Positions 40,213 to 64,000 of a stretch of DNA of 64,000 nt are shown in pieces. Under the pieces are notes generated by a model. That model was not told where the DNA came from. It saw only the letters and a list, made by a program, of their open reading frames with translations, and ran no database searches. This stretch comes from Terrabacter sp. Ter38 (GTDB lineage Bacteria > Actinomycetota > Actinomycetes > Actinomycetales > Dermatophilaceae): the NCBI RefSeq assembly GCF_024519435.1, contig NZ_JALJRZ010000002.1, positions 62,001-126,000 of the forward strand, written 5' to 3'. How positions within the stretch are numbered: the stretch's first letter is position 1; every line of letters begins with the position of its first letter. The position numbers were made by a program, and so were the translations under genes.

Positions 40213-40226
40213 CGACAGCCCTTTCG

Positions 40227-40301: not shown

Positions 40302-40464
40302 GGCACCGGGGCGGACCGGTTGCCGGGCGACCCCTCCAAGGTGGGTAACGGTCGCGCCTCTTGACCTACAAGTGATGATGACAGAGGGCGCCGACAGACG
40401 GCTCGTAACCCGCCGCCAACTCGTGCGTGCCCACCATTCGCTATACGAAGGTGAACGAACTACT

Positions 40465-41250
40465 TCATGTGCCGGGACACCACGAGACGGCGGTGACGGC
40501 ATCGTGACTGTGAATGCTCTCCAGGTTGCGAATGCGCACCCTGTGGCCCACATCCTGGGTCCTCAATTGGCCCGAGAGATCTCGTGCCATGTCCTCGACG
40601 AACGCCGGATGTTCAAAGGCCGTCATCGTGATCGAACGCTCATCGGGGCGTTTTACGATCGGATAAACCGGGCATGACCCCGTGCCGCGGATTAGGTCCA
40701 CCAAGGCTGCAATTGGGACTGGATACGGGGTGTCGTCCTGACCGTGCACATCAACGGTGACGACGCTGCGCTGGTTGTGCGCCCCATAGTCACTGATTGC
40801 CTTGCTGCAGGGGCACAGACTTGTGACTTCGCTCGAGACCGTGGTCACCAGTTCGAAGGCGCCCCCTCGCAGCGTGGCGCGCAGGCTCAGATCACTGGCT
40901 TGCCACGACTGGATGCCGGACGCAGGCGAGGTCACGCGCGTTGCAAACGGAAGACCGATGCCGATGGATGCCTCAGCAACATCCAAACGGGACGCCACCT
41001 GCTTCAGAACGGTAGCGAGTTCGCGAGGATCGATGATCTGCAAGTGCTCGTGCACCAGTTCGACCATGCGACTCATGTGCGTGCCCCGCCGGTCCGCGGG
41101 CAATTGCACGAGGATCTCGAACGACGCAACGCCGGCTTGGACCGTAGCCCCGTCCGAGAAGGTGCTCGGCATCCTCACGCCGTCGATACCGACCTCATCG
41201 AGCGGGATGCCGCGCAGATCCACTTGATTCTGAATATCAGGCAGGATCAT
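40465..41250 (-). CDS. folE2: GTP cyclohydrolase I type IB
   Basis: 261 residues. The start ATG 41250 ([12 protein letters not shown]) overlaps the queD stop (ATGA). FolE2 hallmarks: [22 protein letters not shown] with the metal-binding Cys, and VVTVDVHG. The enzyme converts GTP to dihydroneopterin triphosphate, the first step to preQ0, and uses metals other than zinc where zinc is scarce. Its presence makes the island independent of the host folE. Confidence 0.93.
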
Positions 41251-41618
41251 CGTGCGCCCCGGTAGATGCAACCGGACGTACATGTCTCTCGAACCTGGAC
41301 GGCACTGAGATTGTCGATTTCACCAACTAGTCGATCCCAGATCCAGCGAGCGAGCACTTCGCTCGTCGGGTTCTCTAGGCCGTCGATCTCGTTGAGATAG
41401 TTGTGATCCAACTGATCTTCGAGAGGCTTGAAGGCGGCCTTGATGTCGCCAAAGTCCTGCACCCACCCGGTCTGGGCGCCGACGATACCAGTGACGTGCA
41501 CCTGAACACGATACGAATGCCCATGCAGACGCCCACACTTGTGATTCTGTGGAACGTTCGGTAGACGATGCGCAGACTCGAAGGTGAACTCGCGGTAGAT
41601 CTCGGCGGTGTGGCTCAC
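41247..41618 (-). CDS. queD: 6-carboxy-5,6,7,8-tetrahydropterin synthase
   Basis: 123 residues. The T-fold protein has FESAHRLP, the Cys/zinc motif [24 protein letters not shown] and LDHNYLNEI, and an end [11 protein letters not shown]. Step two of preQ0 synthesis: dihydroneopterin triphosphate to carboxy-tetrahydropterin. It overlaps both folE2 and queE by 4 nt. Confidence 0.94.
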
Positions 41619-42250
41619 GGGATTCCTAAGTACTTGTGCGTTTGAAGGCTGAGGTTCCAGTTGGGGTGGTCGAGGCAGAATTTGACCGCTGCACTCACGT
41701 TGGCGTCTAGATCAGGACCGTCCATTGGCTGCACTCGGTAACTCTCGAAGTCCAGCGATTCGAACTGCAACGGGTCGGCGTTCAACTGTGGGTACACGAA
41801 CTTAAGTTCCTGCCCGCCGCTGACGACCAGGTCCGCCCCAATCTTTGGGCTGACGCACAACCAATCGATGCCGGGTGGCGGCACCCGTGTGCCGTTGGTT
41901 TCGACAGCGACGTAGAAACCGCGGGCCTTCAGTGCCTCGACGGCCGCCTCGTCCAGTTGCAGCAACGGCTCGCCGCCCGTGCAGACAACCATTCGGTCCT
42001 TGGTCCACCCCGAGGGCCACGCAGCCTCGACTGCGTCGGCCAGATCATCAGCGCTCTTGAACCGGCCACCACCTTCCCCGTCGGTTCCAACGAAGTCCGT
42101 GTCGCAGAACTGACAGATCGCTCGGTCACGATCCTCTTCCCGCCCCGTCCACAGGTTGCAGAGGCTGAATCTGCAGAACACGGCTGGCCTGCCCGCGTGG
42201 GCGCCCTCGCCCTGGAGCGTGTAGAAGATCTCCTTGATTTTGTACGTCAT
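41615..42250 (-). CDS. queE: 7-carboxy-7-deazaguanine synthase (radical SAM)
   Basis: 211 residues from ATG 42250 ([16 protein letters not shown]), overlapping the queC stop. The cluster motif is CX14CX2C ([19 protein letters not shown]), the QueE variant known from Burkholderia-type enzymes. [13 protein letters not shown] is the SAM-binding GGE. Step three of preQ0 synthesis. The frame upstream of 42250 is in queC and not translated. Confidence 0.94.
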
Positions 42251-42933
42251 GCCGACTCTTGATAGCTGATCGGGTCGACCGATCCCGCTTCCGCGAAGCC
42301 TCTGAGACGCAACAAGCATGAATCGCAATGCCCGCAGGACCGACCGGCCTCATCAGGGTCGTAGCAGGAACTCGTAAGGCCGTAATCAACGCCCAGGGCC
42401 AAGCCCATTTCAACGATCTGCGCCTTGGTCTTGTCCATCAGAGGCGTGTGAATCTTCAACGTCGAGCCCTCAACCCCGGCACGCGTCGCGAGGTTGGCCA
42501 TGTGTTCGAAGGCCTCGATGTACTCCGGACGACAGTCCGGGTAGCCCGAGTAGTCGAGAGCGTTCACGCCGATGAAGATGTCTGCCGCCCCGACCACCTC
42601 GGCGTACGCCAGGGCGAACGAGAGAAAGATGGTGTTTCGGGCAGGCACGTATGTGACCGGGATGTCTTCGGCCACTTCCTCTGCGGTGTCGTGCTTCGGA
42701 ACATCGATGTCGGCGGTCAGAGCCGATCCGCCGAATGCCGTGAGGTCTATGTCGCAGATGGTGTGGCCCTCAACCCCTTGCGCCGCGGCGACGCGACGGG
42801 CAGCCTCGAGCTCGACAGCGTGCCGTTGGCCGTAGCGAAAGCTGAGCGCGTACGGCTCATAGCCCTGACTCTTCGCGTAGGCCAACACAGTCGTTGAGTC
42901 GAGCCCGCCACTGAGGAGAACTACGGCCTTCAT
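42247..42933 (-). CDS. queC: 7-cyano-7-deazaguanine synthase
   Basis: 228 residues from ATG 42933 ([15 protein letters not shown]); a GTG 12 nt earlier is an alternative. The PP-loop is SGGLDS; the C-terminal zinc site is [22 protein letters not shown]-dependent conversion of 7-carboxy-7-deazaguanine to preQ0. First gene of the minus-strand preQ0 operon, divergent from the DNA-modification genes. Confidence 0.94.
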
Positions 42934-42982
42934 CTCATCCACCAACCTTCATAACCAACGCCGGGCGTGCGATCTGACTCTA

Positions 42983-43011
42983 CGATTTACTGTGGTCTAC
43001 AGTAGCGTCAA
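42983..43011. promoter_or_regulatory. Divergent promoter with palindromic candidate operator
   Basis: TACTGTGGTCTACAGTA (42988-43004) is a perfect 6-bp palindrome with 5-bp centre. On the minus strand TTGACG (complement of 43006-43011) is a good -35 box, and 16 nt after it comes TAAATC as a possible -10, so the palindrome fills the promoter spacer of queC. A repressor bound here would block the preQ0 operon and could reach the plus-strand start at 43045 too. No regulator gene was identified in the window. Confidence 0.45.
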
Positions 43012-43044
43012 CACACCGACAGTTTCCAAGTCAGGGGCCGAGAC

Positions 43045-43917
43045 GTGACCAACCAGATGACGATCGTCGTCACGTGCACTGACCGCAAGTCGCTCCCGGT
43101 GTCCGATGACCTCAGGATCCGAAACCTCAAGCCCGGCACGGTTGAGTCCCGCGCATCCGCCTGGGACGAGAGTCTAGGTCGGGCCACTGACCAGAGGACG
43201 CTCCGCGAGTTGTACCAGGGCGAGGCATGGTCTCAGGTGCCTCGTCTCGAGGGTGCCGCCCGTGCGGCGGGCTACACCCCGGTTGTTCTAGTTGCTTCCG
43301 CTGGCTTGGGCCTTCGCCCACTCGACCACAGGGCGCCTGCCTACGCAGCGACGTTTTCCACAGGCCACGATGACTCCGTCGCGTTGACCGTCGAACAGGC
43401 GCAAGACTGGTGGCAAGCAATCAGCACCGACTCGCCCTCAACGTTGAGTGGACCCATGATGTGGGTGCTGTCAAAGGACTACTCGAAGGTGATCGCTGAC
43501 GACATGCTCGCCCGAACAAATGGCGATCCACTGCTAGTGTTCGGCGGCTCAGTGGATGTTCCATCCGATCGACGCGTCCCATCCAATCGGCAACTCCGCC
43601 GGGCCCTTGGGGGCACAGCTAATAGTCTGAATTTGCGGATGGCTGTGCAATGGCTGGAACTTTCAAGCGCCTGCGGGGCCTTCTCCGCGGAGGCGCCTGA
43701 ACGGTGGCATGACTGGTGCACCGAGGCGGAACGCCCTGAGTCGTATAATCGGGCCCGGCTATCTGATGAAACCATTCTCGAACTGATCCAAGCTTTTCGC
43801 GAAAAAGACCCCGACATCACCAAGTCCCGGGCCTTGCGCCAGTTGCGCGACTCACAACTTGCATGTGAACAACGGCGATTCGGAACTCTCTTTCAGCAGG
43901 CGGAGAAGGTCTCATGA
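43045..43917 (+). CDS. DUF6884/ArcS-like-fold protein, first gene of the dpd operon
   Basis: 290 residues from GTG 43045. The opening IVVTCTDRKSLP, then LRELYQGEAW and VVLVASAGLGLRPLDHRAPAYAATFS, mirrors the DUF6884/YaaA-like pattern (strand-Cys-x-x-x-Lys ... LYxG ... SAxxGL.P). The remaining 150 residues (VPSNRQLRRALGG, WLELSS) are unassigned. It starts the plus-strand run 111 bp from queC. No DpdC homologue was identified by sequence in the window, and this protein occupies a place where one would be expected; the DpdC-like role (preQ0 nitrile to amide) is speculative. Confidence 0.6.
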   Translation: MTNQMTIVVTCTDRKSLPVSDDLRIRNLKPGTVESRASAWDESLGRATDQRTLRELYQGEAWSQVPRLEGAARAAGYTPVVLVASAGLGLRPLDHRAPAYAATFSTGHDDSVALTVEQAQDWWQAISTDSPSTLSGPMMWVLSKDYSKVIADDMLARTNGDPLLVFGGSVDVPSDRRVPSNRQLRRALGGTANSLNLRMAVQWLELSSACGAFSAEAPERWHDWCTEAERPESYNRARLSDETILELIQAFREKDPDITKSRALRQLRDSQLACEQRRFGTLFQQAEKVS

Positions 43918-45047
43918 GCGAAGGTTGGCTCGAGAGACGCGCGTTGAAAGTGCTGCAGAACGCTGAGGTCCCACTATTCCTCTTCACATTGGCGGCTGAG
44001 GAGATCGATCTGGTTGCCGACGTCTCTCGGATTGGTCGCGACGAGGCCGGCAAGTTGATTGGCTACCAGAGACCCGAGAAGCAGAAGCACGTCAAGCAGA
44101 TCCTGGACTACCTCGACTCCGGCGACGTGCTGTTCCCGAATGGGCTCATCCTTGCGCTACCGCCAGAGACACGTTTCAAGTCCAGCCGTGGCCCCGGCAC
44201 CAGTGATGGCCTGGCCGTCTCTGGCACCTTAGAGATTCCGATTTCTCCCGAGGGTGAAGGCCCACGCCCGGCCTGGATCGTGGATGGACAACAGCGCAGT
44301 CTCGCGCTTTCACGGACCAAGAATCGTCGCATGCCAGTGCCGGTTGCGGGCTTTGTGACGCAAGATCTGGACGTTCAAAGAGAGCAATTTCTGCGAGTCA
44401 ATACCGTGCAACCCCTACCAGTGGGTTTGGTCACCGAACTGCTGCCTGAAATCGCGCGCGTCCCGTCGGCCCGGATGGCGACCAGGCAACTCCCCTCCGC
44501 TCTCGTCGACATGCTGAACCAAGATCCCGACTCTCCCTTCTACGGCATTGTCCGACGAGCGTCCACGTCCACGGACAACAAGCACGTGGCGGTGGTGACT
44601 GACACGGGCCTTGTCGAAGCCTTGCGCGAGTCGATCGAGTCGCCGTCGAGCCTGCTGTTTCCGTACCGAAACATCGCCACGGGAACGACAGATACGGAAG
44701 GCATCCGCCGTGCACTTCTCGCGTACTGGGGCGCCGTGCGTCAAACCTTCCCGGGAGCCTGGGGATTGCCTCCCACAGAGTCGCGTCTCATGGGCGGGGT
44801 GGGCATCAGAGCGATGGGCCGACTCATGGACCGCGTGATGGCACACGTAGACGCGAATGCCGCCGATGCCCGCGAGCAAGCCACCGCCGAACTGGCCCTG
44901 ATTGCGCACAGATGCCGCTGGACGGACGGCACGTGGGAGGACCTAGGGCTCACATGGAACGACCTGCAGAACACGCCAAGACACATCAGCGCACTTTCGA
45001 ACTACCTCGTACGCATCTACTTGTCCGAGCGGATGCGTAGAAGATGA
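43914..45047 (+). CDS. dpdB: DGQQR-domain protein DpdB, copy 1
   Basis: 377 residues, ATG 43914 overlapping the preceding stop. The family motif DGQQR is at residues 124-128 (AWIVDGQQRSLAL), characteristic of the ParB/DndB-like DpdB group. It is followed by EQFLRVNTVQPLPVGLVTELLP. C-terminal RWTDGTWEDLGLTWNDLQNTPRHI. In the Salmonella system DpdB helps DpdA insert preQ0 into DNA and has ATPase-type motifs. It overlaps dpdA by 4 nt. Confidence 0.9.
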   Translation: MSEGWLERRALKVLQNAEVPLFLFTLAAEEIDLVADVSRIGRDEAGKLIGYQRPEKQKHVKQILDYLDSGDVLFPNGLILALPPETRFKSSRGPGTSDGLAVSGTLEIPISPEGEGPRPAWIVDGQQRSLALSRTKNRRMPVPVAGFVTQDLDVQREQFLRVNTVQPLPVGLVTELLPEIARVPSARMATRQLPSALVDMLNQDPDSPFYGIVRRASTSTDNKHVAVVTDTGLVEALRESIESPSSLLFPYRNIATGTTDTEGIRRALLAYWGAVRQTFPGAWGLPPTESRLMGGVGIRAMGRLMDRVMAHVDANAADAREQATAELALIAHRCRWTDGTWEDLGLTWNDLQNTPRHISALSNYLVRIYLSERMRRR

Positions 45048-46282
45048 GGTTCTACTTTCCCGACAGCCAGGACCTCGTCAGCCCCACGTATGACTTCCAA
45101 CGTGACGAGTACTCCCCACTACGGGTGAGGCAGCGCGATGACCGTTATGCCCACGAGGTGCTGGAGGAGCATCCCTACCACGGACTTCTGGTGAGCAAGT
45201 CCATCGTCGATGGCTCGATTCGGGGCGCTGGCAAGTACACCGGAGCACAGCGAGCACGCCTGTATCGCTTGGGCGTTCGCGAGTTCTTCCGACTGACGCC
45301 CGAACTCGTGACACTCGGCGACAACGGCGCGTTCAATTACGCTGACGAACTCGTTCCTCCCGTCAACGTCGATGAGACGCTCGACTTCTACGAAGGGTGC
45401 GGCTTCGACGCCGGGGTGAGCGTTGACCACATCATCTTCGGCTATGCACCCGAGGCGGACTTCAACACGGTCGATCCTGCTTGGGCCCAACGACGACTGC
45501 TGACCCTCCGACTCGCCGAAGAGTTCATCACGCGGGTCGCCGACCGGGGTACCGACCTGGAACCTGTCGGCGCCGCCCAAGGCTGGAGTCCAACGAGCTA
45601 CGCGGACAGCGTGAAGCAACTCCAGGCCTTCGGGTATCGTCGCATTGCCCTCGGCGGCATGGTGCCCCTCAAGACTCGGCAGATCGTAGAATGCCTTGAG
45701 GCGATCGACGGAGTGCGCGCGCCCGAGACGGAATTTCATCTCCTCGGCATCACGCGGGTCGACTCGATGGGGCGCTTCGCTGAATTTGGGGTGACGAGTT
45801 TCGATAGCACCTCCGCGTTCCGGCAGGCCTTCATGGACGACCGCCTTAACTTTCACACCCGTGATGAAGCGTTTGTGGCCTTGCGAGTCCCGCAGGTTGA
45901 CGGCAATCCAACCCTTCGCAGAGCCGTCTTGGCTGGCAGGGTGTCACAACGAGATGCTGTGAGCGGTGAGCGCGAATGCTTGCGGGCACTACGCGCGTAT
46001 GACGGATCCGAATCCAGTATGCGTGAGGCTCTGGCGGCGCTCGCCAGGTACGAGATGATTTGCCAGAGCAAGAAGAGCTACCTCTCCCAGTACGAAAGGA
46101 CCCTGCGCGCCGCGCCCTGGGCGAGCTGCTCATGCTCGATCTGTCGCGAACTCGGCATCGAGGTGGCCATCTTCCGAGGCACCGAGCGCAATAAGCGTCG
46201 CGGATTCCACAACCTGTCAGTGCTCGCCCATAAGATTCAGAACCTCGCACGTCCCCATCCAACCGAGGAATCACATGGCTGA
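45044..46282 (+). CDS. dpdA: DNA-guanine transglycosylase DpdA (TGT paralogue)
   Basis: 412 residues. TGT-type features: Asp93 in LGDNGAFNY (general acid/base), Asp128 in the FDAGVSVDHI substrate region, GGMVPLKTRQ, and Asp254 in TSFDSTSAFR, the best nucleophile candidate. The zinc site is Cys362, Cys364, Cys367 (CSCSIC) with His389 (RGFHN). It exchanges guanine in DNA for preQ0. The enzyme is distinct from tRNA Tgt in length and Zn spacing. It stands between two DGQQR genes, both overlapping it. Confidence 0.93.
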   Translation: MRFYFPDSQDLVSPTYDFQRDEYSPLRVRQRDDRYAHEVLEEHPYHGLLVSKSIVDGSIRGAGKYTGAQRARLYRLGVREFFRLTPELVTLGDNGAFNYADELVPPVNVDETLDFYEGCGFDAGVSVDHIIFGYAPEADFNTVDPAWAQRRLLTLRLAEEFITRVADRGTDLEPVGAAQGWSPTSYADSVKQLQAFGYRRIALGGMVPLKTRQIVECLEAIDGVRAPETEFHLLGITRVDSMGRFAEFGVTSFDSTSAFRQAFMDDRLNFHTRDEAFVALRVPQVDGNPTLRRAVLAGRVSQRDAVSGERECLRALRAYDGSESSMREALAALARYEMICQSKKSYLSQYERTLRAAPWASCSCSICRELGIEVAIFRGTERNKRRGFHNLSVLAHKIQNLARPHPTEESHG

Positions 46283-47381
46283 CCGTTACGAACTGCGCCT
46301 TCCGGCTTTGAGGATTAGGCAGGGACAGAAGTACATCTATTCATTCGCAGTTGATGGTAAGCGCATCCACGATTTCGCCACTGTCTCGCGGGTCCACCGA
46401 GACGATGCGAACCTTAAGGGATACCAGCGGCCGGAGGTGCTCACGCACATTCGGGCCATTCGCCGGTACCTCGAGTCCGATGGTCCACTCCTTCCCAACG
46501 CGGTCGTCTTTGCCTTTGACGACCGTGTGCAGTTTGAGGCGTTCAGCGAGAAATCTGCGGTCGACTACTCATCGATCGGCGAGCTCGTGATCCCGATCGA
46601 CGAATCAATCCCCGAAGAGGCGAGGCCCGCTTGGCTTGTCGATGGCCAACAACGTAGTGCCGCGATTCGCGACGCGGACCTTGCGGAGTTCGCGGTCGCA
46701 GCCGTCGGATTCATCGCTGATGGCGAGGAAGAGCAGCGTTCGCAGTTCATCCTTGTGAACAACACAAAACCCTTACCCAAGGGCCTGATTCACGAACTGC
46801 TGCCTGACACCACGGGACATCTACCCCCCGCCTATGCCAGGAAACAATTGCCAGCGCAGATCATGACACGACTCAACGCCGGTCCGCGCAATTTGAAGGG
46901 CCAGCCCTTCGCGGGTCGAATTGCTACGCCGACACAGCCGGATGGGTATATTAAAGACAACAGCGTCCTTAAGATGATTGAAAACAGCCTGTCCGATGGC
47001 GCGCTCTATCAATACCGAGACCCTGCGGACGGATCAGCGAATGTGGACAAGATGGTTGCCCATCTCGTCGCCTTTTGGGACGCGGTTCAGACTACGTTCT
47101 ACGATCCGTGGCAACTCGAACCCCGGAAGTCCCGTCTGACGCACGGCGTTGGAATTCAATCCCTCGGCTATGTCATGGATGCCCTGACGGAGGGCTTCAA
47201 CGTCGACGAACTCGATGACCTCGATCTCACGGGCCAACTCGTGCAACTTCTTCCCTACTGCGCTTGGACCGCGGGAACCTGGGCATTCGCTGAAGACGAT
47301 ATCCGCCGCTGGAACGGCCTGCAGAACACCCCAAGCGACATCAGACTGCTAACTGGTCACCTGCTCCGCACCCTCCGCTAG
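46275..47381 (+). CDS. dpdB: DGQQR-domain protein DpdB, copy 2
   Basis: 368 residues, ATG 46275 overlapping dpdA by 8 nt. DGQQR at residues 123-127 (AWLVDGQQRSAAI), GYQRPEVLTHIRAIRRYL, FILVNNTKPLPKGLIHELLP and AWTAGTW...WNGLQNTPSDI align along the whole length with copy 1 (GYQRPEKQKHVKQILDYL; RWTDGTW...WNDLQNTPRHI). Clearly paralogous but well diverged. Having two is unusual compared with the single dpdB described in Salmonella. An 82-bp gap follows. Confidence 0.85.
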   Translation: MADRYELRLPALRIRQGQKYIYSFAVDGKRIHDFATVSRVHRDDANLKGYQRPEVLTHIRAIRRYLESDGPLLPNAVVFAFDDRVQFEAFSEKSAVDYSSIGELVIPIDESIPEEARPAWLVDGQQRSAAIRDADLAEFAVAAVGFIADGEEEQRSQFILVNNTKPLPKGLIHELLPDTTGHLPPAYARKQLPAQIMTRLNAGPRNLKGQPFAGRIATPTQPDGYIKDNSVLKMIENSLSDGALYQYRDPADGSANVDKMVAHLVAFWDAVQTTFYDPWQLEPRKSRLTHGVGIQSLGYVMDALTEGFNVDELDDLDLTGQLVQLLPYCAWTAGTWAFAEDDIRRWNGLQNTPSDIRLLTGHLLRTLR

Positions 47382-47421
47382 GAGACATCCGACCCAGATC
47401 CCCCTCGAGGTCTGACTTTGG

Positions 47422-47443
47422 GGTTACTCTCCCGGGAGTCACC
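47422..47443. promoter_or_regulatory. Imperfect palindrome before dpdE
   Basis: Within the 82-bp gap, the only sizeable gap on the plus-strand dpd run, GGTTACTCT and GGGAGTCACC form an imperfect inverted repeat around CCC. It may be an operator for an internal promoter or a partial attenuator. Weakly supported. Confidence 0.3.
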
Positions 47444-47463
47444 GATCCGATCAGGGGGTACTG

Positions 47464-50892: not shown

Positions 50893-50893
50893 C

Positions 50894-53491: not shown

Positions 53492-54411
53492 TGGCAGTAC
53501 TCAACCCGCCACGCACACTGCCCAGCCTCGGACGTGCCATCGTGAACTACCTCCTCGATGCGCGTCGTTCGCCGACCGAGGACGACCTTGTCGCCGCATT
53601 CAAGCCGGACGGTCTTAATCCCGGCGCCGAGGCCGCGGGCGGAATGAAGAACACAATCTCCTCGCTGCGCGCGATCAACGTTCTCGAAACGAATCCCGAC
53701 GGAACGCTTCGGTTGGGCGCTCAGGTCCCGTCCCCAAAGTCTCCACTCGACGCTCCGGATTTTCGCCGACTGCTTCATTCCCGAGTCTTCGACCTCGGCC
53801 GGGATGGCGATGTCTGGGCAACGCAACTCGGCGACGGCCACACGAGTGGTGCTCGTGACCTCAACCGCGCCCTCACCTGGGTGATGGCTCAGGACGCCCT
53901 GGGCCAACCGCTGTCATGGACAGAGAACCTGCAAAGGCTCCAGGCCGAGCAGTTCGGCACAACCGATCGTGAAACGTGGGCCATCGTCAACGACACGCGA
54001 TGGGTAGCGGCTTCTCGATGGATTGTTGCGCTCGGCTTGGCGACCCCATCGGTCATGAAAGACCGGTCTGGCGTCGTTCCCTTACCGGTTGCCGCGGTCG
54101 GGGACGTACTGCGAACCGTGCGCGCGGAGCGTCTCCCGATCCATGAACTCCTGGCGCGAATCGGACAGGCGCTTCCCGTCCTTCACGGCGGGTCGATGCG
54201 TTCCGGACTCGTAGCCCTCCTCGGCGCCGACCCAGACCCAGGCATCAACGCCGACTGTGCGGACAGTTCAGTCGGGCAGGCACTGCGCATTCTCGAGGAG
54301 CGCGGTCGAATCCGATTCGAAACACTCCCAGACGCACAAGGCATCCGCCTGTCCCGATTCGACGCCGCGCGCCAAACGCATGCCATCGTGGAAACCGGAG
54401 GAAACAAGTGA
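53488..54411 (+). CDS. dpdG: Protein DpdG
   Basis: 307 residues; GTG 53488 overlaps the dpdF stop by 4 nt, with ATG 53491 as the second choice. The N-terminal part (SLGRAIVNYLLDARRSPTEDDLVAAFKPDG) looks like a winged helix. The rest is mainly helical (RDLNRALTWVMAQDAL, ETWAIVNDTRWVAAS). No catalytic motif. Assignment comes from position in the dpd order; in Salmonella dpdG contributes to the restriction-like phenotype. Confidence 0.75.
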   Translation: MMAVLNPPRTLPSLGRAIVNYLLDARRSPTEDDLVAAFKPDGLNPGAEAAGGMKNTISSLRAINVLETNPDGTLRLGAQVPSPKSPLDAPDFRRLLHSRVFDLGRDGDVWATQLGDGHTSGARDLNRALTWVMAQDALGQPLSWTENLQRLQAEQFGTTDRETWAIVNDTRWVAASRWIVALGLATPSVMKDRSGVVPLPVAAVGDVLRTVRAERLPIHELLARIGQALPVLHGGSMRSGLVALLGADPDPGINADCADSSVGQALRILEERGRIRFETLPDAQGIRLSRFDAARQTHAIVETGGNK

Positions 54412-57400
54412 GCTGGCGTGGCACCCTTCCAGCCGCCTGCTGGAACGCACATGAGGCTTCAGCCATCATCCCTGTTGAAGCAGAAAGCACGTCCGACGGC
54501 GTCTTCCTCGCCACACACAGCACCATCCCGATCACCCAGCGCGACCAGGTCGATAATGCCCGCGGCGGCGCCGTGGTGGACGAACGAGCATTGCTCCGTG
54601 CCGTACAGGAACAGCCTTCGGACCAGCCCATCATTCCTATCCTCGGCAAGTCCGGCACAGGCAAGTCCCACCTCGTCCGGTGGCTCCGCGCTCATCTGGA
54701 AACAAAGGAATCGACCCGCCTGATCTTCGTCCCCAAGCACCGCATGTCGCTCCGTGGGATCCTCGAACTGATCCTTGAGCACGCAAGCGGCGAGCGGGCC
54801 GACGAACTTCGGGCAAAGGTAGCGACCGCGGTCGACGCCGCCGCGGATGAAAAGACCGCGCAACTGAAGCTGCGCAACGCTCTAGCGGTGAACATCGAGA
54901 CGCGCGGGAACCGCACCGACGGATCGCCCGAGGAGATCGAACTCCGCTCGTATCTCGCTTCCCCCGTTGGTCTTCCGGCTCTCTTTGGCGACGACGTCTT
55001 CCGTAGCCGGCTACTCGACCAGAACGGACCGATCGCTCGCTTGGTGCGTGAAAAGCTGTCCGGGAAGGGCGACGAGGACAAGGAGGACGCATTTGGCTTC
55101 GCTGCCAACGATCTGAACCTCTCCGTTGACGACGTGAACCGTGCCGGACAGGCCGCTCGCGAGGTCGCCGGCGCGCTGACGAGCGAACTCTCCTTCCGTG
55201 AACTCGCCGCACGAATGATCAACGAGCAACTTGGTCCGTCCGTGAGCGAGGTCTTCGGCGTAGGAGGCGACGATCTCAAGCAGATCCTCACAGACGTCCG
55301 AGTCGAGATGGACCAGCAGGGCCTCGAACTACTGGTGCTTATCGAGGACTTCTCGATCTTCCAGGGCATCCAGGGTGGACTGATTGATGCCATCACTCTC
55401 ATCTCTACCGAGGCGCAAAGACTTTGTCCGATGCGAGTCGTCATGGCTGTCACCACCGGCTACTTCATCAATCAGATGCCGGAGACGGTCTACACGAGGA
55501 CGTACCGGGTCTTCGACCTCGATCTACCCGACGGGATCGATGTGTCGTTCCAACCGTCCGGGTTCGCCAGTCGATACCTCAACGCCGTTCGCGTCGGAGC
55601 AACTGAACTCGAAGATGCACATGCACGCGGGGAAGAGGTGACCAACGCCTGCGAACAGTGCCCTGTCAACGCGGAGTGCCACTCGTCGTTCGGACAAGCC
55701 GACGGCTACGGCCTCTTCCCGTTCAGCCCCGCCGCCCTCGACCGCGCTATCAAGAGCCAATCGACGGACGGCAGTTTCGTGGCTCGCGACGTGCTAACCC
55801 GGGTCCTTCGACCGGTCCTCCATCGTGATCAGGCTGAGATCGACAACGGCCAATTCCCGAGCGACGGCTTTGCCAATGACTTCCGGACCGGTGCAAGCGA
55901 CCGTTTGGCGAACATCGAGGACCAGTTCAAACTGCGGACGCCCGGAGACGAGGAACTCTCCGAACGTCGCATTCGGCTCGTCCGATTTTGGGGCTCGGGG
56001 GCGGGTGCGGAGAACCTTGCGCCGACGATCCATGAAGCCTTTGGCGTTACGCCAATCGCTGGACTCAACGAACCGAAGAAGGCGATCGTGGAGCCGAGTC
56101 CGCCTCCGCCCACCGAACGTTCGCGAACTCACACCCCGACACCGCAACCAGTCGATGCGGATCCAGCGCTGGTCAAGGCCGTCGATGGCTGGCTCGCAAC
56201 CGGCAACATCCTCCAAGGCGAGATCAACGACCTTCGGAACATCGTCTTTCAAGCTGTCCGACAGCGACTCGCGTTCGAGGACGGCTACGGCGGCGACAGC
56301 CTGTGGAGCAACGACAAAGCCCTTGCACCAGGGTTCGAAGCGAAGATGGTCGAGTTCAACCAAGCGAAGATCGCTGGCGCCGTCCTGCCGATGGACCGAT
56401 CGAACTCAGACGACATGCGAGCCCTGCGGGCACTCGCATGGGCAAACCACAAGAATAACTGGGCGGAAGTGCCTGACGGAGAGCGTCTGCAGAGGCTCAC
56501 GGAGACCGCCATCGACCGATGGGCAATGCGCGTGGGCGGCGCACTTCTTCCGCCGCAGCACCCCAACGACGACACCGAACTGGCCCTGCTCGTGGAAGTG
56601 CTGCTCAGCATGGCGCGAGCGCTCGGAATCCCCGACGCATTCAAGTCCGACACCGCTAGTCGGATCCGGGCCCTATTCGCCCCTATCCCTGTACGGACAG
56701 ATCTCGAACTGAGGCCTGGTCTCCGGTCCCTCCACGGCTTCCTGGTGGACGGCGCCGGCAGCGGCAATAACGTGGCTCGGGTCGGCCGCGGCCATCTCCA
56801 GCAGCGACTGCTGCGTCACGCCTCCTACAGCCAGGGCTCTGGCAAGCCCCTTGCCCTGGACCTCAGCAAACTAGCGAGGGTCGTCCGTAGCGGTGCGGTG
56901 GGCGCACCTTGGCCCGATTCGACCCCCGACCTGATCAAGACCTCGGTCACGACCATCGAGGCCCGACTGGTATCCATCGACTCCTTGCACGCAGAAGCTT
57001 CGAACCTGGTACCCGATCTTTCCGACCTCGGAGGTGAGCTCGCCGACGTCGCCTCGGAACTTGTCGTCCTCGTCAACGAGCGCGCTGCCGCCGGTGCGCT
57101 GCCAGGTGGAATCAACCCCGCCGACCTCCAAGCCGCAGCCAAGTCCGTCAAGCCCGGTGACCAACGCAAGGTCGAGGCCGCCTTTGCCGAGCTGAGTCGC
57201 TGGGATCAACTCACGCACGACGAGAAAATGCAGGTCCTAAACGCCGACTGGGATGAGCCCGCACGGCGAGTAGGTGCCTGGCTCCAAATGGCCAGGCAAA
57301 CGATCCGACTGCTTGAGCACAGCCTCGGCAACGGCAGTCCCTCTGACGTGCAACGCGAATACGCTGAGGCACGCGACCAACTGGTCGCCGATCTCACCGC

Positions 57401-57464
57401 CACGGCCGACTCGATCTCGAGCCCACCAACCGAAGATCCAGCCGGAGCAGAGGAGCTCGCATGA
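54408..57464 (+). CDS. dpdH: ATPase DpdH
   Basis: 1018 residues from GTG 54408 (GTGA overlap). Walker A GKSGTGKSH at residues 80-88 and Walker B-type LLVLIEDFSIFQG around residue 308 make it an AAA-like/STAND ATPase. A CxxCx5C cluster (CEQCPVNAEC) at about residue 414 suggests zinc. The second half is helical with no family recognised. Assigned as DpdH by P-loop, size and position between dpdG and dpdI. Confidence 0.8.
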   Translation: MSWRGTLPAACWNAHEASAIIPVEAESTSDGVFLATHSTIPITQRDQVDNARGGAVVDERALLRAVQEQPSDQPIIPILGKSGTGKSHLVRWLRAHLETKESTRLIFVPKHRMSLRGILELILEHASGERADELRAKVATAVDAAADEKTAQLKLRNALAVNIETRGNRTDGSPEEIELRSYLASPVGLPALFGDDVFRSRLLDQNGPIARLVREKLSGKGDEDKEDAFGFAANDLNLSVDDVNRAGQAAREVAGALTSELSFRELAARMINEQLGPSVSEVFGVGGDDLKQILTDVRVEMDQQGLELLVLIEDFSIFQGIQGGLIDAITLISTEAQRLCPMRVVMAVTTGYFINQMPETVYTRTYRVFDLDLPDGIDVSFQPSGFASRYLNAVRVGATELEDAHARGEEVTNACEQCPVNAECHSSFGQADGYGLFPFSPAALDRAIKSQSTDGSFVARDVLTRVLRPVLHRDQAEIDNGQFPSDGFANDFRTGASDRLANIEDQFKLRTPGDEELSERRIRLVRFWGSGAGAENLAPTIHEAFGVTPIAGLNEPKKAIVEPSPPPPTERSRTHTPTPQPVDADPALVKAVDGWLATGNILQGEINDLRNIVFQAVRQRLAFEDGYGGDSLWSNDKALAPGFEAKMVEFNQAKIAGAVLPMDRSNSDDMRALRALAWANHKNNWAEVPDGERLQRLTETAIDRWAMRVGGALLPPQHPNDDTELALLVEVLLSMARALGIPDAFKSDTASRIRALFAPIPVRTDLELRPGLRSLHGFLVDGAGSGNNVARVGRGHLQQRLLRHASYSQGSGKPLALDLSKLARVVRSGAVGAPWPDSTPDLIKTSVTTIEARLVSIDSLHAEASNLVPDLSDLGGELADVASELVVLVNERAAAGALPGGINPADLQAAAKSVKPGDQRKVEAAFAELSRWDQLTHDEKMQVLNADWDEPARRVGAWLQMARQTIRLLEHSLGNGSPSDVQREYAEARDQLVADLTATADSISSPPTEDPAGAEELA

Positions 57465-58171
57465 CCTTGCGAAGCACCATCCAGGATCTGCGCGCCTACG
57501 CCGACGTCGCCAACGACGAGCACAGGGTCAAGGTTCGGACAGGACAGTTCGCAGAACTCAGCGCACGCCTCGCCCCGCCTTTGGAGGGGCTGCCCGCGCT
57601 CAACATCGCGCTGAGTGAAGTTGCCCAACTCGATGTCGATCTGCCAGCCGGTCGGGAACAGGATGCCGCCCAGGTAGCTGACGGTCTCCGTGCCCTGGCG
57701 GATGAATTGCCATCCCTAGGCATCGAGCAGAACCTTGACCTCGCGAAGGAGCGCGTCCGCTCGGCCGAGAAATACACCAACCAGCTGCGCACTTTCGTCG
57801 TAGGCACCTGGCAGACGCACGTGAGCCAACCCCCACCGGCGATCAACACCGATCTCATCGACGCCCTGGCACAGGGCGGAATTGACGTCGAGGCGATTCG
57901 CGATGCGCTCGAGACCGCGCGCGGCCGCCTGCTCGCGATCACCAGCAGGCTGATCCCGGACCGTGGTGCGGTTCAGAAGCACCATGACGCAATCGAGTCG
58001 ATACACCGCTGCGGCGAACAGATCGGAGAGGTCGTCGACTCCGATATCGCTGAGGGCATCGTGGGGTCTCAGGAACCGTCTGGGGTCCCGCTCACCTGGT
58101 TCACGCCAGAACGTCTCGAAAGGCTTCAGGCCCTCGGCATCCTCGATCGTTTCCACGTGAGGCTGCGATGA
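57461..58171 (+). CDS. dpdI: Protein DpdI
   Basis: 236 residues, ATG 57461 in an ATGA overlap. Predicted largely alpha-helical with heptad-like stretches (LRSTIQDLRAYADVANDEH, AQVADGLRALADEL, LDLAKERVRSAEKYTNQL), so a coiled-coil subunit is likely. No enzyme motif. Function follows from dpd context; Salmonella dpdI is needed for the restriction-like phenotype. Confidence 0.72.
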   Translation: MTLRSTIQDLRAYADVANDEHRVKVRTGQFAELSARLAPPLEGLPALNIALSEVAQLDVDLPAGREQDAAQVADGLRALADELPSLGIEQNLDLAKERVRSAEKYTNQLRTFVVGTWQTHVSQPPPAINTDLIDALAQGGIDVEAIRDALETARGRLLAITSRLIPDRGAVQKHHDAIESIHRCGEQIGEVVDSDIAEGIVGSQEPSGVPLTWFTPERLERLQALGILDRFHVRLR

Positions 58172-61100
58172 ACCCAGCGCTGTCCACCCGAATCCTTGAC
58201 CGACTCGAGTCACTCGAGGATCCACTGCTGTGCTGGGGAGTCGTCGACGGTGGCTTCAGCACAGACGAACTCCGCAGGGTGATCACCGACGAACTCACCG
58301 CAAGCCACGAATGGGACCTCGGCGCCGACGACATCATCGAGGCGATGACTATGCAGGCGATGCTGGTCCACGACTCCAGTTCGTCCCCCGCCCGTTGGCG
58401 CACCCGCAATGGTGAGACCATCCGCTTGGTGGCGCGACTCCGGCAGACCTTCCTCGGCCAGACGTGGCAATCCGGAACGAACCTGATCTCCGACTTCCGG
58501 TACGCACGCCGTCCCCGCTTCTATCCAAAAAGGGATCACCCTTGGACAGCTGCCATCGACGGGGTCGTCGGCCCCGTCGACGCCTACCGCGATGTCCTCG
58601 AGGTCATGACGCAACGCGACGGCAGGCATGACCTCCTAGGCGGGTTCCAGGTCCGCGCTACCAGGCACATCTTGTCCGCGCTGCAGAGTCAGACCACGAC
58701 AGCCACCGTGGTCGGTGCTGGAACCGGAAGCGGAAAGACCAACGCGTTCTACCTCCCTGCCTTCAGCCACCTGGCTAGTGTCACCGACCCCTCCGCATGG
58801 ACCCGCGCACTAGCCGTCTATCCCCGTACCGAACTGCTGAAGGATCAGTTGGACACGGCGTTCGCCCACGCCTGCCGACTCGACGGGCTGTGGAAGCGGT
58901 CCACTGGACGATCGCTGACGATCGGTGCCCTCTACGGCAGCACACCCACTAATGCGAAAAACGTAAGGCTTCCCTATCGGGGTTGGGGAAGGCGCTCCCA
59001 CGGCATGGCTTCACCGCAGATGCGCTGTCCCGGCGATGGTTTCGCCCAATGTGGAGGCGAACTCGTCTGGCCCAACGAAGACATCGATGCCGGAGTCGAA
59101 CGCCTGGTATGCGCGACCTGCCGGCGCTCGTTCGGACAGGACCAAGTCGTCCTTACCCGTCAATCCATGCAGAACTCGCCTCCCGACCTCCTCTTCGTGA
59201 CGACCGAGATGCTCAATCGGGGACTCTCCGATATGAATCTCACACGGCCTTTGGGCATCGACGTACCAGTCGGCAAGAAGCCTCGGATGATGCTCCTCGA
59301 TGAGATTCACACCTACGACGGAACCACCGGCGCCCAGGCCGCCATGGTGCTCCGCCGATGGCACCACAGCATCCAAGCCCCCATTGCCTTCGTCGGTCTC
59401 TCCGCGACGCTGTCGAACCCGATCCGCCACATGGCAGACCTGACCGGGGTCGACGACGAACTCGTCAGCAGCATCACGCCCGACGCCGACGAGTTGGAGT
59501 ACGAGGGGGCGGAGTACTTGCTCGCGCTCCGCAGCGACCCCACCAGCGGCGCGTCCGTCCTGTCCACGACCATCCAGACAGCCATGCTGCTCCCGCGAAC
59601 GCAGGATGAGTCGGCGAGTCGGATCTCATCCGGTGTCTACGGAACGAAGGCCTTCGTCTTCACAGACGATCTCGATGTCACGAACCGGCTGTTCTCATAC
59701 CTCCTCGACGCCGAAGGGCAGCGGTACGCCTCCGGAAGGACGAACTCGTTCAAACCTCCTCTCGCGTCATTACGTTCGATCTCCAATGGGGGGGAGGTCA
59801 CGCAACAGCGTCGCGCCGGCCAACTCTGGGATCTACCTACTGCGATCGGCCACAAGTTCGCAACGATCGGCGAAGGTCTTCGGGTGAGCCGAACCACTTC
59901 ACAGGACGCAGGCGTTACGGCCGACAGTCAACTGATCGTTGCGACCGCGTCTCTCGAGGTCGGCTTCGACGACCCCGACGTCGGTGTGGTCATCCAGCAC
60001 AAGGCACCTCGCGGAGTCGCCGCCTTCCTTCAGCGGAAGGGGCGAGCGGGTCGCAAGCGGACCATGCGGCCCTACACCGCAGTCGTACTGTCCGACTACG
60101 GCCGCGACCGCGCGACATACGAGTCGTGGGACACCCTGTTTGACCCCGTGCTCCCTGATCTCGTGCTGCCGATCCGCAACCGCGCCGTACTGCGCATGCA
60201 AGCAACCATCGCGATGATCGATTGGCTGACAGCGCAGCTCCGTGAACAGCGTGTCCCGAGAACGACAAACGGGTGGACAGCCCTCGGCCAGAAGCCGGCC
60301 GACAGCTTCGCCAAGCCGGGCCGCGAGACTCAACTCAAGGCCGTTAAGATCCTGAACGAAGCCCTCCGCGATCCGGACCGCCAGCGAAGCCTGCGCACGT
60401 GGGTGCAGACCGCACTCGGCCTGTCCGACTCAGAGGCCAACGAAGTCTTGTGGCATCCGCCGAGGCCACTCTTGCTCGAGGCGATCCCGACGTTGCGTCG
60501 CCGCCTCCTGCACAACTGGGGCGTGGCCGATGCCACCAGAGTCCACGAGTTTCGCGATCTCATGGGCGGCAATCCCCTGCCCGACTTCTTCCCGATGAAC
60601 CTCTTCAGCGAACTCGCTTTGCCCGAGACTTTAGTGAGCATTCCGCCTCAGTCGGATCGGGATACCGAGCGCGAAGTCCATCCGATGGGTCTCGGCCAGA
60701 TGCTCCGCGAGTACGCACCGGGTCGGGTGTCACGCCGATTCGCAACAAGGAATCTCGAGCACCGCCACTGGATTCCCGTTCCGATCGGCGTAGCTGAACC
60801 GATACTTGAACTCACAACGCTCCTGCCCCTGTTTGGGATCGAGGAGCCTTGCACCATCGACCTTGACGGCACTCCGACGACCACCACGGTCGTTCGTCCC
60901 GATGAGGTCCTGCTCGAACTGCCACCGAAGGCAGTGAAGGACTCGTCAAACGCAACGATGCAATGGCGGTCGCAGTTCGTCGAAACGGGGACCGGCCTGA
61001 TTATCCGCGTGCCGAGCGCCGACCCTGTCGGGCGCCTGATCAAGGACGCGCGCTTCTTCCTGCATGCTCAGAACGCTCACGTCAATGTCCATCGTGCGGC

Positions 61101-62664
61101 CGTGAGTGCTGACGCCACCCTGAACCTCGAAGACGGCAGTGAGCAGCGGGTTCGATCTCGCTTCGCGCTTCATGGCCAACCGGCCGCGATGGGCTCGACT
61201 TTTGAGGTGGACGGATTGCGCATCCGAGTCGAACTTCCGGCGGACATCGCCATCCCGTCCGACCTCATGCCCGGACTGCGCAGTGCCTGGTTCAAGCACG
61301 TCCTGCTCAATGACGATGAGTTGCTGAGCTTCCTGAATAGCTTCCGGATTGACTGGCTGCACCAGTGCCTCGAGGCCATGCTGCTCACTACGGCAGTACG
61401 TGACCAGAGCACCCTCGCGGAGGCCTACGCATCGATCCACGACTCCTTCGACGACAAACTCGACGAAACCCTCGACGCCATGTTCCGGGCGTCGAGCGTG
61501 GTCGAGTCAGAGTCCGCGGTGCTGTCACGAATGGGCGCCCGACTCAAGGAGGCACTCAAGAACCCGGCCATCGCCTCCCGTCTCGACGCCCTGGCGCCGC
61601 AGTACTGGTCTCCTGAGCCCACAGCGTTCAATCGGTGGTTGCGCGAACGGACGCTTTCGACGCTTGGACATGCGACGCTGGCTGCGGCCAGACAGATCTG
61701 CCCGGAGCACGATCCTGAAAGCATCCTCGTTGACATCGAGCCCGGATATGATGCCGACGGCCGACCGCGGGCCGGGGAGATTTGGCTGTCGGAATCCTCC
61801 ATCGGCGGCGGTGGATTCGTAGAAGCCCTCGCCGCGCGGGTCCGCCCCGATCCTCGACGACTCCTTCGACTCCTCCTGCGAGCTACACAGCCCAGTACGT
61901 ACGAACTCGTTGACATCCATCTTCAGCGGGTAATCGATCTGACGACCACGGACCCCACGTGGTCTGGCCTCGTCAACGACTTTCGGACTGCGCCTGATCA
62001 GGCAACACGCGTCGAGGCGCTCGGGCGGATCCGGGATGGCCTGCGCCAATCAGGCATCTACGGCGCCGAGCAGTCGGTCGTGTCATCGCTTGCGAGTCGC
62101 GTTCTGCGGCCAGGATCGACCCCAGCGACGGACAGGGCGTTGTCGACTGTGACGACCGAGTGGAAGGCAGAGGAGCGGCGACTCGGTGTCGAAATCCCAC
62201 CTCGCACCTGGGCGTATCTGATGCGCGCACGCGCCGACTTGGATGCTGGCCTGGTCCTCGCGGGTGGAGGCGGCGAGCGCCAGCGAATGGATGCGGTCCA
62301 GAGCATGCTGTGGCCGCGCGGCTGGCAACTCCGTGCTGAACAACTGAACGCTTGGAATCCGTTTGCCGCGAATCTGGCAGCGGCACCCGACGTGCTGCGG
62401 TCTCTCGCTGCCGCAGGCGATCCCCCGCTCCCCCTCATCGGCGACTTCCGTGTACGCGTCCGGCGGGCCCTGGCGAGTATGGGCTCGGCGCAGGTCCTAG
62501 CCACCCCCGATCAGGCCGGAGAGCTCGCAGATCTGCTCGTGGACGTCAGCGTCGAGCCGGTAGTGACCGAATACCTCAATGTCTATCCGCGGGTTGTGGA
62601 GGTCGACCACCGGGCGAACGGCGACGTCGTCGTCGCGCTCGAACTGGCCGAGGTGTCGGCATGA
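58168..62664 (+). CDS. dpdJ: DEAD/DEAH helicase DpdJ
   Basis: 1498 residues. Walker A GAGTGSGKT at 183-191, a four-Cys zinc ribbon (Cys287, 295, 315, 318; CPGDGFAQC...CATC), the DEIH box at 378-381 (MLLDEIHTYDG), FVGLSATLSNP, and motif V/VI ATASLEVGFDDPDVGVVIQ...FLQRKGRAGRK. The arrangement recalls YprA-type (COG1205) helicases. The long C-terminal half is unassigned. It is probably the motor for the restriction arm. Confidence 0.87.
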   Translation: MNPALSTRILDRLESLEDPLLCWGVVDGGFSTDELRRVITDELTASHEWDLGADDIIEAMTMQAMLVHDSSSSPARWRTRNGETIRLVARLRQTFLGQTWQSGTNLISDFRYARRPRFYPKRDHPWTAAIDGVVGPVDAYRDVLEVMTQRDGRHDLLGGFQVRATRHILSALQSQTTTATVVGAGTGSGKTNAFYLPAFSHLASVTDPSAWTRALAVYPRTELLKDQLDTAFAHACRLDGLWKRSTGRSLTIGALYGSTPTNAKNVRLPYRGWGRRSHGMASPQMRCPGDGFAQCGGELVWPNEDIDAGVERLVCATCRRSFGQDQVVLTRQSMQNSPPDLLFVTTEMLNRGLSDMNLTRPLGIDVPVGKKPRMMLLDEIHTYDGTTGAQAAMVLRRWHHSIQAPIAFVGLSATLSNPIRHMADLTGVDDELVSSITPDADELEYEGAEYLLALRSDPTSGASVLSTTIQTAMLLPRTQDESASRISSGVYGTKAFVFTDDLDVTNRLFSYLLDAEGQRYASGRTNSFKPPLASLRSISNGGEVTQQRRAGQLWDLPTAIGHKFATIGEGLRVSRTTSQDAGVTADSQLIVATASLEVGFDDPDVGVVIQHKAPRGVAAFLQRKGRAGRKRTMRPYTAVVLSDYGRDRATYESWDTLFDPVLPDLVLPIRNRAVLRMQATIAMIDWLTAQLREQRVPRTTNGWTALGQKPADSFAKPGRETQLKAVKILNEALRDPDRQRSLRTWVQTALGLSDSEANEVLWHPPRPLLLEAIPTLRRRLLHNWGVADATRVHEFRDLMGGNPLPDFFPMNLFSELALPETLVSIPPQSDRDTEREVHPMGLGQMLREYAPGRVSRRFATRNLEHRHWIPVPIGVAEPILELTTLLPLFGIEEPCTIDLDGTPTTTTVVRPDEVLLELPPKAVKDSSNATMQWRSQFVETGTGLIIRVPSADPVGRLIKDARFFLHAQNAHVNVHRAAVSADATLNLEDGSEQRVRSRFALHGQPAAMGSTFEVDGLRIRVELPADIAIPSDLMPGLRSAWFKHVLLNDDELLSFLNSFRIDWLHQCLEAMLLTTAVRDQSTLAEAYASIHDSFDDKLDETLDAMFRASSVVESESAVLSRMGARLKEALKNPAIASRLDALAPQYWSPEPTAFNRWLRERTLSTLGHATLAAARQICPEHDPESILVDIEPGYDADGRPRAGEIWLSESSIGGGGFVEALAARVRPDPRRLLRLLLRATQPSTYELVDIHLQRVIDLTTTDPTWSGLVNDFRTAPDQATRVEALGRIRDGLRQSGIYGAEQSVVSSLASRVLRPGSTPATDRALSTVTTEWKAEERRLGVEIPPRTWAYLMRARADLDAGLVLAGGGGERQRMDAVQSMLWPRGWQLRAEQLNAWNPFAANLAAAPDVLRSLAAAGDPPLPLIGDFRVRVRRALASMGSAQVLATPDQAGELADLLVDVSVEPVVTEYLNVYPRVVEVDHRANGDVVVALELAEVSA

Positions 62665-63185
62665 GACGGATTACGACTGGGGGCCGCGGGCAGACGCGGG
62701 TTCTCAATGACCTCATGCAGAACCTGCTGGTCACAGAACTCCTGGTCCCTTCCGGGCAACTGTGGGTTCTGTCTCCTTGGATCTCCGATATTGACGTAAT
62801 CGACAACACGGCGGGCCAGTTCAAGACCGTGCTGCCAGGTCTCCCATCACGAAGGATTCACCTGACCGAGGTCCTGATCGAACTGGCTCGTCGTGGGAGC
62901 GACGTCCGCGTTCTGACCCGCGACGCTGAGAGCAACATCGTTGCGCGCCAGCGGCTCGAGAATGCCGGCGGCCTGGGCGCTAGGCCGGCGGTACGAATCC
63001 ATCCCAATCTCCACGACAAGGGCATCCTGGGCGACCGATTCCACCTCCAGGGATCGATGAACTTCACCTACTTCGGACAGACGATAAACGCTGAGGGCGT
63101 GACGTTGACGCGCGACCCCCACGCCATCGCGGAGACGCGGATCTCGTACAACGCCCTCTACGAAGGGGCCGGTCATGCAGGGTGA
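62661..63185 (+). CDS. dpdK: Phospholipase D-like nuclease DpdK
   Basis: 174 residues from ATG 62661 (ATGA overlap with dpdJ). A single HKD-like motif is visible, HDKGILGDRFHLQGSMNFTYFG, with His118 and Lys120, so activity would need dimerisation as in other one-motif PLD nucleases. The N-terminal LWVLSPWISDIDVI is the usual PLD strand. A candidate for the cutting subunit. Confidence 0.88.
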   Translation: MRRITTGGRGQTRVLNDLMQNLLVTELLVPSGQLWVLSPWISDIDVIDNTAGQFKTVLPGLPSRRIHLTEVLIELARRGSDVRVLTRDAESNIVARQRLENAGGLGARPAVRIHPNLHDKGILGDRFHLQGSMNFTYFGQTINAEGVTLTRDPHAIAETRISYNALYEGAGHAG

Positions 63186-64000
63186 CGAGTTTTTTGGGCC
63201 CGGTAACGACATCAAACCCGCACGCCTACACCCCGAGCACGAGACATCGATCGAGAACTGGCGCGCTGCCATCAGGCGTGGGCAGATCGCGTTTCTTCCG
63301 AGAGCGACCAGCGGAAACCTTTACTGGTACGGGTTTGCGCCCACGCAACGGGAGCAGAAAGAGTTGCTCACGCTGCTGGACGCCTGGGTAGGCCCCACAT
63401 TCAGCGACCTGCCGAGAAGCCGGGGGCGGCTGTACCCAAAGGATCCGTTTGACACGGCGCTGGCCACGAACGACGTGCCGCCACTTCGCTTTGAGGTTCT
63501 GCCTCGCGGCAGCGGAGCGGCTCGCGACGAGGTACGCCAAGCACTCCTGGTTCTCTCCAAGTTGGTGTGGAAGCGTCCCCGCTCTGAGTTCGACGCCCCA
63601 CGAACCACGGTCGAGGTGCTCGACGACTTGGGTCACGCAATTGGTGCTCAGGATCGGCGAATCGCCCTTGCATGCCTTCGTGAACTCGAAGCCTTCGCCG
63701 ATCTCGACCACTCGAACCTTGCGTTCCTCCGCTTGCGCGTACACGCCGGGCTTAGGGACGTGGCCGCAATCTTCGCCGACCAGGACCTGGAACACGTCCT
63801 CCAACTGCGTCGCCCACTCGGTATCACTCGACTGCTTCAGCACGCTGTCTACGAGCGCTACCTAGAAGCGGCCGACGCATCCGGCGAGGGAGCATCACTG
63901 CTCGAAGCTGCCGACCGGATCCCAACTGGGCTCCGAACACTCACAACAGGAGGCACCGCAGGAAGCCGGCCCGCGCTCGTCGTCGAGTTCGTGCTAGCCA
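63175..64000 (+). CDS. dpdD: Protein DpdD (3' partial)
   Basis: ATG 63175 overlaps dpdK by 11 nt and the frame stays open through the right edge (275 codons here). It begins MQGDEFFGPGNDIKP and includes WYGFAPTQREQKELLTLLDAW and LRFEVLPRGSGAARDE, followed by helical repeats. Assigned as DpdD from its order after dpdK and its start; in Salmonella dpdD belongs to the restriction arm. The rest lies outside the window. Confidence 0.7.
   Translation, partial: MQGDEFFGPGNDIKPARLHPEHETSIENWRAAIRRGQIAFLPRATSGNLYWYGFAPTQREQKELLTLLDAWVGPTFSDLPRSRGRLYPKDPFDTALATNDVPPLRFEVLPRGSGAARDEVRQALLVLSKLVWKRPRSEFDAPRTTVEVLDDLGHAIGAQDRRIALACLRELEAFADLDHSNLAFLRLRVHAGLRDVAAIFADQDLEHVLQLRRPLGITRLLQHAVYERYLEAADASGEGASLLEAADRIPTGLRTLTTGGTAGSRPALVVEFVLA

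Follow-up and report, generated by a model that had tools for sequence, protein, structure and literature searches.

The stretch of Terrabacter sp. Ter38 DNA analyzed here (the window) comprises 64,000 nucleotides and is taken from a contig of 552,645 bp (bases 62001-126000) in the 4.83-Mb genome of this soil actinobacterium. A dpd island spans positions 40465-65340, its last gene running past the 64-kb window on the same contig. Its gene order is folE2-queD-queE-queC on the minus strand, divergent from dpdC-dpdB1-dpdA-dpdB2-dpdE-F-G-H-(I)-J-K-D on the plus strand, with the following features:

40465-41283, minus: folE2, GTP cyclohydrolase, first preQ0 step (NF010200, 229 bits, above cut-off; PF02649, 2.7e-70)
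41247-41618, minus: queD, 6-carboxytetrahydropterin synthase (TIGR03367, 110.7 bits, above cut-off)
41615-42244, minus: queE, radical-SAM 7-carboxy-7-deazaguanine synthase of the Cx14CxxC type (TIGR04508, 340 bits, above cut-off)
42247-42945, minus: queC, preQ0 synthase (TIGR00364, 219 bits, above cut-off)
42946-43044, no strand: divergent intergenic region with the palindrome TACTGTGGTCTACAGTA (69 regions compared)
43045-43917, plus: dpdC (PADLOC PDLC02817, 1.4e-98)
43914-45047, plus: dpdB1, upstream DGQQR (DndB-like) paralogue (NF041060, 390 bits, above cut-off; clade apart from dpdB2)
45044-46282, plus: dpdA, DNA-guanine transglycosylase (NF041059, 588.7 bits, above cut-off; 7ui4_A, 2.8e-115)
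46275-47381, plus: dpdB2, downstream DGQQR (DndB-like) paralogue (NF041060, 505.8 bits, above cut-off)
47464-50892, plus: dpdE, SNF2/DrmD-like helicase (NF041062, 1139.5 bits, above cut-off)
50894-53491, plus: dpdF, RecQ-like helicase (NF041063, 649.6 bits, above cut-off)
53488-54411, plus: dpdG (NF041064, 155.5 bits, above cut-off)
54408-57464, plus: dpdH, AAA ATPase (NF041065, 665.4 bits, above cut-off)
57461-58171, plus: probable dpdI (position and weak profile matches)
58168-62664, plus: dpdJ, YprA-family helicase (NF041067, 1795 bits, above cut-off)
62661-63185, plus: dpdK, phospholipase-D-type protein, ATG at 62661 (NF041068, 183 bits, above cut-off)
63175-65340, plus (63175-64000 in the window): dpdD, 721 aa (full length NF041061, 615.6 bits, cut-off 300)

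FolE2, QueD, QueE, QueC, DpdA, both DpdBs and DpdD, E, F, G, H, J and K all score above their NCBIfam cut-offs. The gene calls confirm the divergent layout, spacings and coordinates of the original prediction, as well as its complete preQ0 pathway; the two DGQQR proteins that it had reported both retain the motif and both belong to NF041060. Its assignments of dpdE-K and dpdD hold for E, F, G, H, J, K and D, while the dpdI match is weak. The dpdI candidate scores 12.7 bits against the DpdI model NF041066 (E 0.093, cut-off 150) and has no Pfam or PADLOC match; hhalign gives 90.5% (E 1.3e-6, a weak alignment) against the same-place proteins of other islands and 4% against the Enterobacter protein alone. 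The original prediction had allowed that dpdC might lie outside the stretch, but it is the first plus-strand gene, left unnamed there; its protein has no match in Pfam or NCBIfam (E up to 10) or in the PDB. Extension to the right completes dpdD, as had been anticipated; the part inside the window alone scores 271 bits, below the cut-off. The listed queE reading frame, with its start at 42328, is over-long at the 5' end, the family match beginning at residue 29.

From dpdC to dpdB2 the genes overlap by 4, 4 and 8 nt, followed by an 82-nt gap ahead of dpdE. A 1-nt gap separates dpdE from dpdF, overlaps of 4, 4, 4, 4 and 4 nt run from dpdF through dpdK, and dpdK overlaps dpdD by 11 nt. The TACTGTGGTCTACAGTA palindrome between queC and dpdC possibly represents back-to-back -10 elements. 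It occurs in just 2 of the 69 queC-dpdC regions (the window and locus L025), and a conserved operator was rejected on this count; CTACAGTA is present in 22 of the 69.

GC content measured in 2-kb steps is 0.686-0.739 over 1-40 kb and 0.605-0.643 over 40-64 kb. At third codon positions (GC3) the values are 0.67-0.76 for 13 island genes (queD, queE and dpdK left out), 0.89, 0.97, 0.94 and 0.75 for four right-flank genes and 0.86, 0.73 and 0.73 for three genes of the segment to the left of the island. The less GC-biased codon use noted earlier for the island relative to 1-40 kb is thus a real contrast, although some neighbours do not show it. No tRNA was found in the window or the following 39 kb, and a tRNA attachment site was rejected on this ground. 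No integrase was seen among 10 flank ORFs compared with Pfam.

Dpd systems are described as inserting preQ0 into DNA via DpdA and DpdB, forming dADG via DpdC and directing DpdD-K against unmarked DNA (available text of PMC11888242, PMC12839542 and PMC12707154), with the DpdC of S. Montevideo reported in print to convert dPreQ0 to dADG. In the Terrabacter host, FolE2, QueD, QueE and QueC would convert GTP to preQ0, DpdA with its ATPase-like DpdB partner(s) would exchange guanine in host DNA for preQ0, DpdC would hydrolyse dPreQ0 to dADG, and the DpdD-K set of helicases, ATPase and PLD-type proteins would attack unmarked DNA. The gene content is observed directly, and for this host we infer all biochemical steps from the published Dpd work in S. 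Montevideo. The host probably replaces some guanines of its own DNA with a modified base and turns on DNA that does not carry it.

DpdA matches a solved DNA-guanine transglycosylase (PDB 7ui4) across residues 1-400 with an E value of 2.8e-115, and C362, C364, C367 and H389 are invariant across 84 aligned sequences. Its 588.7 bits against the DpdA model compare with 15.9 bits, under the cut-off, against Pfam TGT. In a tree, 17 DpdA proteins stand apart from 2 Tgt proteins with support of 100/100, the outgroup being thin: 12 Tgt-like loci were tried and 2 yielded rows, which Pfam assigns to TGT at 460 and 490 bits. These results bear out the original identification of the TGT-like gene as dpdA. 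In the whole host genome there is no TGT family match (the control gave a match in all 14 named genomes) and one QueC match, the island gene. Since the host has no match to a tRNA Tgt and a single QueC, preQ0 is probably made for DNA, which supports the earlier claim that the que genes serve DNA in this organism.

Because folE2, queD, queE and queC can also supply queuosine by an established pathway, the que and TGT-like genes could conceivably carry out tRNA queuosine synthesis and merely adjoin a helicase defence system. Such an arrangement is very hard to reconcile with a genome devoid of TGT family matches and with a DpdA that resembles the DNA enzyme and separates from Tgt, and the que genes are found at most of 80 related loci (queC at 79, queD at 78, queE at 78 and folE2 at 71). 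It is likewise highly improbable that the main use of the preQ0 genes is in making a 7-deazapurine secondary metabolite: preQ0 is generally a precursor of 7-deazapurine molecules (according to the available text of PMC11888242), but the genes of the cluster are explained by preQ0 and Dpd families (dpdI weakly), and dpdA has que genes beside it in islands from many genera.

Contigs of 84,980 species genomes were scanned with DpdA, yielding 196 relatives, of which the best 80, 56-97% identical, were kept and their neighbour genes located by tblastn. Among these best 80 of 196, dpdC lies upstream in 78, queD and queE are each found in 78 and folE2 in 71, and queC is encoded opposite dpdA in 68, shares the strand of dpdA in 11 and is missing from 1. 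A DpdB flanks DpdA on both sides in 78 of the 80 actinobacterial relatives, the exceptions being L076 and L087. Restriction genes, counted by best matches to DpdE, F, H or J that reach 60 bits in loci reaching at most 10 kb from dpdA, vary in placement relative to dpdA: downstream on the plus strand in 17, downstream on the minus strand in 49, upstream on the minus strand in 5, upstream on the plus strand in 2, and unseen in the locus in 7. The islands with queC co-directional with dpdA are L041, L045, L047, L050, L053, L059, L065, L071, L077, L087 and L101. The ten besides L087 have the order queC-queE-queD-folE2 and are much diverged, with FolE2 35-44% and DpdC 30-35% identical to the window proteins.

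DpdA scored above the cut-off in 2 of 396 genomes in a sample of the phylum, one of them the host, with weaker matches below the cut-off in 20 more, and scored above it in 3 of 9 genomes of the same genus. Among 72,556 plasmid records there were 25 matches, all below 60% identity to DpdA; two plasmid DpdAs, from Paenibacillus (L136) and Allocoleopsis (L137), are about 690-700 aa long, with a long N-terminal extension ahead of the matched part. One of 50,697 phage records matched this bacterial-type DpdA (MT835580.1, 34181-35476, 38% identity along the whole length).

The relationship between the paired DpdBs was assessed with a tree that takes in the window together with 16 of the 80 islands and adds three outsiders. 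Upstream and downstream DpdBs form separate groups of 19 and 19 rows, with support of 100/100. The upstream DpdBs of Methylobacterium and Sinorhizobium group with DpdB1, and their downstream DpdBs lie on a separate, very long branch; the one DpdB of Enterobacter takes no settled position in this tree. Both paralogues retain DGQQR and many conserved residues in common, so an inactive second DpdB is unsupported. Extra dpdB copies have already been counted (n=801, as given in the available text of PMC11888242, where a pair around DpdA is not mentioned); the conserved pair raises the question of the second DpdB's role.

Terrabacter sp. Root181 carries a dpd island at the same locus as the window, and window positions 40377-47381 align to it at 93.5% identity, the alignment ending with the stop codon of dpdB2. 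Alignment resumes in the right flank at window position 65548, with flank pieces 84-91% identical. Between these two points lies a dpdF-G-H-I-J-K-D set of another lineage, all above the NCBIfam cut-off save dpdI (37.6 bits, cut-off 150), in which DpdJ is 40% identical to that of the window. Right after dpdB2, Root181 retains a 52-residue dpdE remnant, 65% identical to residues 81-132 of the window DpdE. An ISL3 transposase lies past dpdD at the outer end of the exchanged module (L133:1667-2896), and at the inner end there is a 43-residue, 35% match to it. An IS-flanked composite remains a suggestion, given the shortness of this inner match and no self-repeat within L133.

The Root181 remnant also bears on whether the Ter38 island might be decayed, making the mark with an inactive restriction half. 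Decay does occur, as this sister strain keeps just a fragment of dpdE, and because no DpdE above the cut-off was found in its genome, restriction may fail in some carriers. In Ter38 itself, however, the reading frames of dpdD, E, F, G, H, J and K are uninterrupted and cover nearly all of their models, every member of the set exceeding its NCBIfam cut-off, and we therefore consider a modification-only or decayed island improbable.

Nocardioides caeni presents the converse of Root181, with DpdJ 93% and DpdA 71% identical to the window proteins. When 50 of the 80 genomes are compared with the window, DpdJ identities form two humps, with 41 at 35-40% and 8 at 59-93%; the remaining genome gives no match. 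DpdF and DpdA trees were built for the window and 16 islands holding DpdF, leaving out further ones such as L049, L070, L083 and L088. In the DpdF tree the 6 rows of the window type form one group (100/100); several other-type rows are long, and the window-type rows are not. The DpdA tree for these 17 loci requires 3 changes of type, all forced by well-supported branches, and a single change is seen in 0% of 200 bootstraps. The two trees conflict on well-supported branches, and the restriction half has a history separate from that of the marking half. Taken together, Root181 and the tree conflict indicate that a single conserved marking cassette occurs with restriction genes of two or more lineages. 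Since different restriction lineages adjoin a nearly identical marking cassette, what they respond to is probably the lack of one common mark.

A finer mosaic is visible within the marking half. T. aerolatus is closest to the window among the pairs compared in DpdA (80%) and DpdB2 (82%), whereas its DpdC and DpdB1 are 64% and 89% identical to those of Nocardioides sp. PD653-B2 and 44% and 77% identical to those of the window. When distances were correlated across 69 rows (the window plus 68 islands), DpdA-DpdB2 stood apart from the que/dpdC/dpdB1 block. Three co-evolving blocks were rejected, as most of this contrast disappears without the co-directional islands (59 rows) and the signal rests largely on that one divergent set of left blocks. 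We tentatively entertain, while regarding it as doubtful, a scheme in which actinobacterial Dpd is a mosaic of three parts and the two DpdBs have distinct jobs: a left block (que, dpdC, dpdB1) and a dpdA-dpdB2 core would be joined to an interchangeable restriction block whose different lineages sense the absence of one mark, DpdB2 would act together with DpdA, and DpdB1 would determine something else, for example which sites are chosen, regulation or a link to DpdC.

At the chromosomal site, the same flanks in genome G398 instead hold a C5-cytosine methyltransferase, a Vsr-like protein and MzaB-E-like proteins with AIPR and Z1 domains (L126:7951-17522), and this alternative defence content suggests that the site is a defence hotspot. 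The 5.9 kb on the left (34518-40376) look like a separate insert, judging from the alignments: Root181 connects window position 34517 nearly directly to 40377, and G398 retains short pieces. This segment contains a SAM-IV riboswitch just outside folE2 (40249-40366, minus strand, 44.4 bits, cut-off 38). The riboswitch faces away from folE2, in the direction of a cREC_REC gene (39721-40212) and a gene for a DUF3293 protein (37703-39724). Matches to the latter protein occur in T. aerolatus and in G399, where one stretch contains a stop, and none was found in the 6 other same-genus genomes searched. DpdE-like helicases under the cut-off were seen in G396 (C1:933849-936242, 261 bits) and G403 (C1:937113-938879, 196 bits); our guess is that these are of the DISARM type.

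In our reading, to which we assign a probability of roughly 0.93, the locus would be a complete Dpd modification-restriction island whose restriction half has been exchanged independently of its marking half, at a site that holds other defence genes in a sister genome. It is a well-identified Dpd island of a kind already known; what it usefully adds is the exchange of modules and a DpdB pair that is nearly universal. It also provides a complete island of the Terrabacter group, with all genes for preQ0 supply, from a host in which no Tgt match was found. A text search of PMC11888242 gave no mention of module exchange, which may nonetheless already be in print. The sister pair, with a shared marking cassette and locus and a different restriction half, offers a natural experiment on recognition of a shared mark by Dpd restriction modules.

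Known Dpd islands, including those of Salmonella Montevideo, Kineococcus radiotolerans and the Actinomycetota set, have the same gene families with preQ0 genes alongside; the available text of a survey preprint counts 333 unique islands in Actinomycetota (PMC11888242). An annotated Enterobacter plasmid has the same E-F-G-H-x-J-K-D order, with a hypothetical protein at x. The window differs from the known islands in that its DpdA lies between two DpdBs and that folE2-queD-queE-queC and dpdC point away from each other. Plasmid islands of Methylobacterium and Sinorhizobium share a dpdB-dpdA-dpdB arrangement, followed by queE-queD-queC, and their upstream DpdB falls in the DpdB1 clade. In contrast to the window, their DpdA is 39-42% identical, they carry a VUT-family transporter gene, and their gene table, which is incomplete, contains no folE2. 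A BREX-related capture (BRC) class with TGT, described in the available text of PMC12839542, has the TGT without DpdB and DpdC; the island has both and does not match this class.

A parallel lies in phosphorothioate (Dnd/Ssp) systems, in which the marking module is likewise free of one fixed restriction module (available text of PMC10853773 and PMC8092258). The nearest precedent seen is the decoupling of DndABCDE from DndFGH (PMC10853773, in its available text). The two kinds of system differ in that sulfur is placed in the backbone by Dnd/Ssp and a 7-deazaguanine base is used by Dpd, and the protein link seen here between them is the DndB-like DpdB. If the doubtful three-part mosaic holds true, different Dpd restriction lineages would sense the absence of one 7-deazaguanine mark, as varied effectors do for phosphorothioate.
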